DNA of 39,597 nt from positions 1-39,597 of the forward strand of contig JAAYRQ010000037.1 of assembly GCA_012518685.1 (NCBI GenBank), in the 5' to 3' direction. Under the pieces are notes generated by a model. It made no database searches and had not been told where the DNA came from. It saw only the letters and a program-made list of their open reading frames with translations. Below, in pieces: positions 36,886-38,738 of this stretch. A program made the position numbers and the translations under genes. Source of the DNA: Syntrophomonadaceae bacterium (GTDB lineage Bacteria > Bacillota > Syntrophomonadia > Syntrophomonadales > Syntrophomonadaceae). Position 1 is the first letter of the stretch; each line of letters begins with the position of its first letter.

Positions 36886-37746
36886 TTACTCACTCCTAAT
36901 ATAGGACGAAACTATATAGGTTTCATCATAATTGCTTACAAAATAATCATAAGCAGTTTTTAGTTTATTAACTTCCTTAAACAAAGCAAAAACACTGGGA
37001 CCACTTCCCGACATTACTGCACTAAAGGCCCCCAATTCCAGAAGCTTTTGTTTTATAAGACCTATTTCAGGGTATAAAGATACTGTAACTGCTTCTAATA
37101 CATTAATCATCTCAAGGGCCATATTATCAAGGTCCATATCCTGCCAGGCTTTAATAAATGCTTCATTATTAGGTCGTCTTTTAATTTTATCTAAATCCAG
37201 TTGACCAAAAACATCCTTAGTTGCTACAGAAAAATTAGGCTTTACTAATAAAAATTTTAATGTATGCCCGCCAGGTAAAGGGCTTAGTATTTCTCCCCGC
37301 CCCCTTGCCAAAGCCGTCCTATTAAAGATACAAAAAGGCACATCCGAACCTATTTCTAAGGCAAGTTCAGCCAAATCCTTAAGACTTAATTTAGTCTGGT
37401 ATAAGTGATTAAGCCCTAATAATACTGCGGCTGCATTAGAAGATCCTCCCGCTAGACCAGCACCTATAGGTATATTTTTCTCTATATAAATATTAACTCC
37501 TGCTTTTTTCCCAGTTTTTTGAAAAAAAAGTTCGGCCGCATAGTAAGCTAAATTATTAGCATCGTTAGAAAGTTGACTACTGTTAGAGTTTACAATGATT
37601 GTGTTAGCTTTATCAATAGTTATTTTGTCTTTTAAAGATATAGCCTGCATAATCGTTTCTAACTCATGATAGCCGTCAGGTCTTTTGCCCTTAACATCTA
37701 AAGTCAAATTAAGCTTAGCAGGTGCCCAGATTGTCACTTTATCCAT
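36886..37746 (-). CDS. ispE: IspE, 4-diphosphocytidyl-2-C-methyl-D-erythritol kinase
   Basis: GHMP kinase of the methylerythritol phosphate route to isoprenoids. The 286 residues carry PAKLNLTL (9-16, with Lys11), the ATP loop PIGAGLAGGSSNAAA, GSDVPF with the catalytic Asp, and MSGSGPSVFAL near the C-terminus. An AGGAG ribosome site precedes the ATG. It starts after the spoIIR terminator, so spoIIR and ispE are separate units. Its stop abuts the GntR start. Confidence 0.97.
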   Translation of the reverse strand: MDKVTIWAPAKLNLTLDVKGKRPDGYHELETIMQAISLKDKITIDKANTIIVNSNSSQLSNDANNLAYYAAELFFQKTGKKAGVNIYIEKNIPIGAGLAGGSSNAAAVLLGLNHLYQTKLSLKDLAELALEIGSDVPFCIFNRTALARGRGEILSPLPGGHTLKFLLVKPNFSVATKDVFGQLDLDKIKRRPNNEAFIKAWQDMDLDNMALEMINVLEAVTVSLYPEIGLIKQKLLELGAFSAVMSGSGPSVFALFKEVNKLKTAYDYFVSNYDETYIVSSYIRSE

Positions 37747-37858: not shown

Positions 37859-38413
37859 CTAGTCTAACTTAACTCCTTTAGGCAGTAACTCCAAACACTT
37901 TAAGGTAACTTTGGCCTCCCTAGGATTTTCTAGGCTTAATCCTTTATCACTGGAAGAAACAATACATAAGGGTGGAAAAAGCACACACCACCAGTTTTTA
38001 CCACTGCCCTCACCTATAATCACTTTCAATGCATAATAATCACCAGAAGGAAAAACCAAGTTGCCATAGGATTTAGTAGGAAAGGTAAAGGTGCCTAAGC
38101 TAACCTCAACAGGGTAATTGTAACCCTCTGCTACAATAGCCGCCTCAGCTTCCCTTTTAATATTAGCTAGGTTATTTTCTGCCTTTATTCTAGCATCCTC
38201 GATATTAGAAGTATGGACAAACTCCTCTTGCATATAGCTAACGATATGGTCTTTTACCGCTAATTTTAAGGCCTGATCATCAATCTTATCACTGTTAGCT
38301 ATTACATGTAATCTAATTACACTATCTGTTAAGGGCTTATTATGCTGGGCTAATACTTGAGTACCCCCAAAACTAATAAAAACAATTAATATAATTACTA
38401 AAAATTTTTTCAT
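37859..38413 (-). CDS. spoIIR: SpoIIR, secreted signal activating pro-sigma-E processing
   Basis: 184 residues with a signal peptide (basic MKK, hydrophobic core, cleavage after about residue 22). The mature part has the family hallmarks: VIRLHVIANSDKIDDQALKL and GSGKNWWCVLFPPLC. SpoIIR is secreted from the forespore into the intermembrane space and triggers SpoIIGA to cleave pro-sigma-E in the mother cell. The ATG has GGGGG 8 nt upstream and an exact sigma-F promoter at 38437-38466. It is transcribed alone and ends at its own terminator. Confidence 0.96.
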   Translation of the reverse strand: MKKFLVIILIVFISFGGTQVLAQHNKPLTDSVIRLHVIANSDKIDDQALKLAVKDHIVSYMQEEFVHTSNIEDARIKAENNLANIKREAEAAIVAEGYNYPVEVSLGTFTFPTKSYGNLVFPSGDYYALKVIIGEGSGKNWWCVLFPPLCIVSSSDKGLSLENPREAKVTLKCLELLPKGVKLD

Positions 38414-38564: not shown

Positions 38565-38593
38565 TTGACATCCTTTGTGAAGATAGGTACAAT
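38565..38593 (+). promoter_or_regulatory. Strong sigma-A promoter for the plus-strand small-RNA candidate
   Basis: TTGACA (38565-38570, exact), 17-nt spacer, TACAAT (38588-38593, 5 of 6). It points away from spoIIR towards the terminator at 38683-38722. The start should fall near 38600. Confidence 0.8.
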
Positions 38594-38599
38594 TACATC

Positions 38600-38722
38600 A
38601 TAAGAATTAGCTAGTGTTTTATTTCACAATACTAATTCAAAACCACATACATTTTCTAATTCCCCCCCCCGGGAATTAACTAGACATCACCAAGCCATGA
38701 GGTGGTGTCTTGTTCTTTTTTC
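38600..38722 (+). ncRNA. Predicted small RNA with C-rich loop, about 120 nt
   Basis: A transcription unit without an open reading frame: sigma-A promoter just upstream, rho-independent terminator at the end. Three hairpins can be drawn: (1) GAATTAG/CTAATTC (38604-38610 with 38632-38638); (2) TAATTCCC/GGGAATTA (38657-38664 with 38671-38678), whose loop continues a run of nine C (38662-38670); (3) the terminator stem. An A-rich single-stranded stretch (38639-38656) lies between 1 and 2. It does not resemble 6S, tmRNA or SRP RNA. The C-rich loop could pair with G-rich ribosome-binding sites, as in Gram-positive RNAs such as RsaE/RoxS; that is inference. Confidence 0.62.
38683..38722 (+). terminator. 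Terminator of the plus-strand small-RNA candidate
   Basis: GACATCACC (38683-38691) pairs with GGTGGTGTC (38701-38709): nine pairs, one of them G-T, with a 9-nt loop. TTGTTCTTTTTT follows. On the minus strand no T run follows the hairpin, so it is oriented for plus-strand transcription. Confidence 0.8.
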
Positions 38723-38738
38723 TATTATTTTAGCATTT

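Follow-up and report, generated by a model that had tools for sequence, protein, structure and literature searches.

The question raised by this locus is whether a short promoter-to-terminator unit lying beside spoIIR in a Syntrophomonadaceae bacterium is a small RNA (sRNA) gene or a chance arrangement of motifs and, if it is a gene, what controls it and what its RNA may act on. The window referred to below is the whole stretch of DNA analyzed (39,597 nucleotides), and the coordinates of its features are collected in Table 1. The initial annotation had read this unit as an undescribed small RNA candidate that could pair with G-rich ribosome sites and could tune sporulation or envelope genes. 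The signals on which that reading was built are all present. The TTGACA box, 17-nt spacer, and TACAAT box (11 of 12 promoter matches) form the top-ranked promoter-like site between positions 37000 and 39597, although such a match proves little by itself, given 16 promoter-like sites observed against 9.6 expected by chance. Positions 38594-38722 of the plus strand are predicted to fold into three hairpins with an energy of -32.9 kcal/mol, compared with -16.5 for shuffled sequences (z -5.7; 0 of 200 shuffles equally stable), and the third and last hairpin is followed by TTGTTCTTTTTTC. This terminator is missing from the promoter/terminator scan because its loop is 9 nt long and the scan maximum was 8. 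As had been claimed, the window's list of open reading frames (ORFs) contains none of at least 25 aa inside the unit; a same-strand ORF starts at 38702, within the terminator. The next gene downstream, encoding an HD-domain protein, is on the opposite strand, and the unit therefore stands alone. The C9 run is the sole run of at least seven C or G residues on either strand of this 39.6-kb, 35.5% GC window. The initial annotation placed all nine residues in an exposed loop; the run stands, but in the predicted fold only six are exposed (three pair with the following GGG). In some homologs, T. lipolytica included, the whole run is predicted to be open.

Table 1. Positions of the sRNA locus features in the window, with the basis of each assignment.
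Feature	Position	Strand	Basis or remark
-35 box TTGACA	38565..38570	+	TTGAC kept in 12/13 homologs
Rex-type operator TTGTGAAGATAGGTACAA, over spacer and -10	38575..38592	+	Left half-site intact, right half-site weak here
-10 box TACAAT	38588..38593	+	Sequence scan and homologs
sRNA transcript, ~120 nt	38600..38722	+	Start predicted 7 nt after the -10 box
Hairpin 1	38604..38638	+	Fold; 6/7 model pairs with compensatory change
Conserved linker CCACATACATTTTCTAATT	38643..38661	+	Alignments A2 and A3
Hairpin 2 UAAUUCCC/GGGAAUUA	38657..38678	+	Fold; found in only some homologs
C9 run, putative anti-Shine-Dalgarno seed	38662..38670	+	38665-38670 unpaired in predicted fold
Intrinsic terminator AGACATCACC/GGTGGTGTCT and T-rich tail	38682..38722	+	Fold; 7/13 model pairs with compensatory change
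spoIIR, conserved divergent neighbour	37859..38413	-	Linkage marker, putative target at most

Comparison with related genomes carries the case for a gene. A DNA search recovered six relatives from the same family, and a covariance model (R1) built from seven sequences, using the RNA part only with the promoter excluded, identified 13 homologs among 54 Syntrophomonadaceae genomes, one per genome and distributed over 8 of 23 genera, including Thermosyntropha lipolytica. The R1 match in the window spans 38596-38725 (E 1.0e-23, the window sequence being itself among the R1 builders), and a second covariance model (R2) recovered the identical 13 homologs. A model search of a spread of 399 Bacillota genomes yielded no homologs outside the Syntrophomonadaceae. 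Scanning ~85,000 species for this promoter in combination with a C6 run gave matches in Thermosyntropha lipolytica DSM 11003, Thermosyntropha sp., Syntrophomonas, and other Syntrophomonadaceae metagenome-assembled genomes (MAGs). The matches outside the family (Desulforamulus, a Bacillota MAG, and two Chloroflexi) are not homologs, and in Desulforamulus and the Bacillota MAG the matched stretch continues into the start of a coding sequence resembling adenylate kinase. Weak model matches (L172, L173) and weak RsaE matches (L174-L176) were likewise set aside, as they lack the sRNA design. Runs of 6-10 C residues occur in all 13 homologs, which come from separate genomes, so that an assembly error is ruled out. 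Stretches of C4-7 also occupy loop 1 in 8 of the 13 homologs, with CUUUUCCCC or C6-7 in most close relatives; these have been lost from the window genome (L029, 1501-1630), whose loop 1 is without a C4.

The position of the locus is also conserved. Twelve of the 13 homologs adjoin spoIIR in divergent orientation, and in T. lipolytica (G012) spoIIR lies ~4.8 kb from the sRNA on the same contig. In 25 further family genomes, inspection of the region upstream of spoIIR revealed no similar unit. One family member carries a second spoIIR-like gene (G003:C1:559061-559519) away from the sRNA locus. Across the 13-sequence alignment, compensatory changes affect 13 of 20 model base pairs, and covariation reaches 0.424, compared with 0.192 for shuffled alignments and at most 0.113 for slid structures, the alignment having been fitted to the model and thus leaning towards that structure. 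The alternative that the unit is a leader or attenuator of the downstream gene, or encodes a tiny protein, draws on a TTG-started frame of 27-42 aa in some homologs. A conserved micro-ORF was rejected, however, since no frame is common to the homologs and no good ribosome site was found in them. A leader is contradicted by the downstream gene, which differs between genomes and is often convergent, and by the strong terminator that closes the unit, making this the most improbable of the alternatives considered. The unit thus combines what is expected of an independent sRNA gene (its own promoter and terminator, a conserved structure, no ORF, and no fixed downstream gene). Homologs, synteny, and covariation together strongly support, at the level of sequence comparison, an sRNA gene as opposed to a chance motif, and the small RNA of the initial annotation is upheld.

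A Rex-type operator in the promoter had escaped the initial annotation. Promoter spacers ordinarily show no conservation. In this case, 12 of the 13 homologs carry TTGTGA in the spacer, as part of an imperfect palindrome of 18 nt (TTGTGAAnnnnnTTACAA) that runs with its right arm into the -10 box, and four distant homologs identified by the promoter-free model (L036, L038, L039, and L040) each carry TTGACA, TTGTGA, and TACAAT at near-equal spacing. The rex gene was found in 52 of 54 family genomes, and its products match the NCBIfam Rex equivalogs and, by sequence, solved Rex structures. Upstream of rex, most carriers of the sRNA possess TTGCGAACTATTTCACAA or a similar sequence that shares the half-site TTTCACAA, and in two genomes no other sequence came close to the Rex consensus genome-wide. 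This operator (TTGYGAA..TTTCACAA; L092-L102) overlaps the rex promoter in most carriers, and the Syntrophomonadaceae rex gene appears to be autoregulated. When the sRNA promoters were scored among 39,442 18-mers with a position matrix built only from the rex-upstream sites, 11 sRNA promoter sites ranked in the top 22; those of the relatives mostly ranked 2-22 and that of the window ranked 107. None of 2,000 spacer shuffles reached the observed mean matrix score, a count uncorrected for the relatedness of the genomes. The operator is matched in sequence by 12 of the 13 homologs (strongly in 11) and is common to the sRNA and their own rex promoters in the carriers as a group, and weak in the window genome, where scans for Rex palindromes returned only unrelated or weak sites. 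The rex gene of the window genome (G000:C123:3255-3421) is cut by a contig end. With its loop-1 Cs gone and its right operator half-site degenerate, the window copy is somewhat eroded. The remaining homolog (L037; G004:C171:18607-18720) has the RNA, with C5 and C7 in its loops, behind a different promoter that lacks a Rex-type site under the rex-site matrix, and its regulation has evidently been rewired. Outside the family, the sequences from Desulforamulus putei (L056:881) and the Bacillota MAG (L060:7846) have in common a TTGACC..TTTGTGATATAATATACAAT promoter that closely precedes the adenylate-kinase-like coding start and may hold a Rex-type site.

Because TTGTGA and the -10 box in 12 of the 13 spacers resemble the rex-upstream operator, Rex probably represses the sRNA gene and lets transcription proceed at high NADH; Rex control is considered likely. 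The same sRNA could instead be governed by a regulator of the Crp/Fnr type, or by a different repressor recognizing TTGTGA, given that TTGTGA-N6-TNACAA fits the Crp/Fnr framework as well and that the right half-site is imperfect, in a position where overlap with the -10 box constrains it anyway. Proteins of the Crp/Fnr type, however, usually activate from upstream, whereas the site here lies between the -35 and -10 boxes, a position for repressor action, and in these genomes rex itself is preceded by the same half-site, where it overlaps the rex promoter; a regulator other than Rex is accordingly rated unlikely.

The sequence around the C run suggests how the RNA may act. The conserved linker and the C run together would be antisense to G(n)-AAUUAGAAA-AUG. 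In the group of close homologs, ACAYTTTCYAATT is kept ahead of the C run, and the antisense of the two would read G(n)-AATTRGAAARTGT, an ideal Shine-Dalgarno sequence, spacer, and AUG. The C runs are conserved as runs more than as exact sequence, which might point to an RNA that binds a protein or serves as a sponge instead of pairing with mRNA, but conservation of the flanking linker in the close group is what would be expected of a pairing seed, and this possibility is judged quite remote. Candidate targets were drawn from pattern searches and from short sequence stretches; a ranking by duplex energy was left unused, because chance pairing of GC-rich stretches and hairpin 1 accounted for most of it. 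Each of the four ribosome sites that the initial annotation cited as G-rich (spoIIE, the DUF2520 gene, spoIIR, and yabR, the last with a long spacer) is present. In one relative (G011), GGGGGG start sites include those of genes whose products match, in Pfam, acyl-CoA dehydrogenase, enoyl-CoA hydratase, Etf, NADH-G-type Fe-S protein, cytochrome b561, short-chain dehydrogenase, and ATP synthase A (AtpB), a list that is suggestive only because such genes are common in syntrophs. G-rich ribosome sites occur family-wide, in members with and without the RNA.

The proposed role in sporulation or envelope functions fares less well. CsfG is a sporulation sRNA of Bacillus, and the RNA described here resembles it in belonging to a spore former; an sRNA that serves sporulation through spoIIR or nearby sporulation genes would also account for the linkage to spoIIR in 13 of 13 genomes and for the G-rich ribosome sites at spoIIR and spoIIE. 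The locus differs from CsfG in matching no Rfam family and in having a sigma-70-type promoter with a redox-type operator, which suggests NADH/redox control. Moreover, the G runs at the spoIIR ribosome site (3-7 in genomes with the RNA, 2-6 in those without it) show no clear difference between carriers and non-carriers, so that spoIIR was not retained as a target, and spoIIR persists in many members of the family that lack the RNA. Sporulation is therefore an improbable function, marginally more so than control by a different repressor.

The closest known counterpart is RoxS/RsaE (RF01820), found in Bacillus and Staphylococcus, in which C-rich regions pair with Shine-Dalgarno sites (PMC4409812) and which is repressed by Rex until NADH rises (PMC4409812, PMC5419742). 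The two share a length of ~110-120 nt, an own promoter, several C-rich segments (C6 or longer in 13 of 13 homologs here, with the loop-1 Cs absent from the window genome), an intrinsic terminator, a Rex-type site at the promoter (in the present RNA, by sequence match) and, by analogy, the proposed pairing with G-rich Shine-Dalgarno sites. They differ in the spoIIR gene neighbourhood, in the longer C runs (6-10), and in operator position, since the Syntrophomonadaceae operator covers the spacer and -10 box and that of roxS lies just downstream of the transcription start (PMC5419742). The Rsa group of S. aureus includes, besides RsaE, other sRNAs with C-rich regions that are likewise thought to pair with ribosome sites (PMC4409812); the present RNA resembles them in this proposed pairing and is distinguished by its restriction to the Syntrophomonadaceae and the absence of an Rfam match. 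No Rfam 15 family, including RsaE/RoxS, was matched in a cmscan of 12 homolog loci, and none of 54 family genomes exceeded the Rfam cut-off for RF01820, for which the B. subtilis control was positive. The sRNA is undescribed in Rfam 15, as the initial annotation held, and represents a new sRNA family of the Syntrophomonadaceae that probably works like RoxS/RsaE and falls outside RF01820 by test. Of the original reading, then, the small RNA stands and Shine-Dalgarno pairing by the C-rich RNA is plausible by analogy; the sporulation or envelope role is not supported.

The reading favored here, and held to be reasonably probable, is that of a stand-alone, trans-acting sRNA of ~120 nt that is gated by Rex in response to NADH and whose C runs mask G-rich Shine-Dalgarno sites. 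At a low NADH/NAD+ ratio, Rex bound across the spacer and -10 box would keep the gene off; as NADH builds up, Rex would be released and the sRNA would accumulate. Aided by the ACAYTTTCYAATT linker, the exposed C runs could now anneal to G-rich Shine-Dalgarno sequences and reduce the translation of a group of mRNAs, those of catabolic and redox genes being the likeliest candidates, and so rebalance NADH. A more speculative extension, put forward only tentatively, is that this NADH-gated, C-rich sRNA arose independently of RoxS, or that the similarity has been lost with age, and that by acting antisense to the Shine-Dalgarno sequence, spacer, and AUG it tunes genes for beta-oxidation, hydrogenase/formate metabolism, and ATP synthase during syntrophic growth.

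For syntrophic fatty-acid oxidisers, NADH reoxidation sets the thermodynamic limit at which they live. NADH disposal, as the energetic bottleneck of syntrophic growth, is the setting in which the proposed tuning of energy genes would take place. In the literature searched, no sRNA of syntrophic fatty-acid oxidisers was found described. If the proposal is true, a RoxS-type circuit, running from an NADH sensor to an anti-Shine-Dalgarno RNA, exists far outside the Bacilli, whether by descent or by convergence, and would offer a direct handle on the post-transcriptional control of syntrophy in the cultured Thermosyntropha lipolytica.
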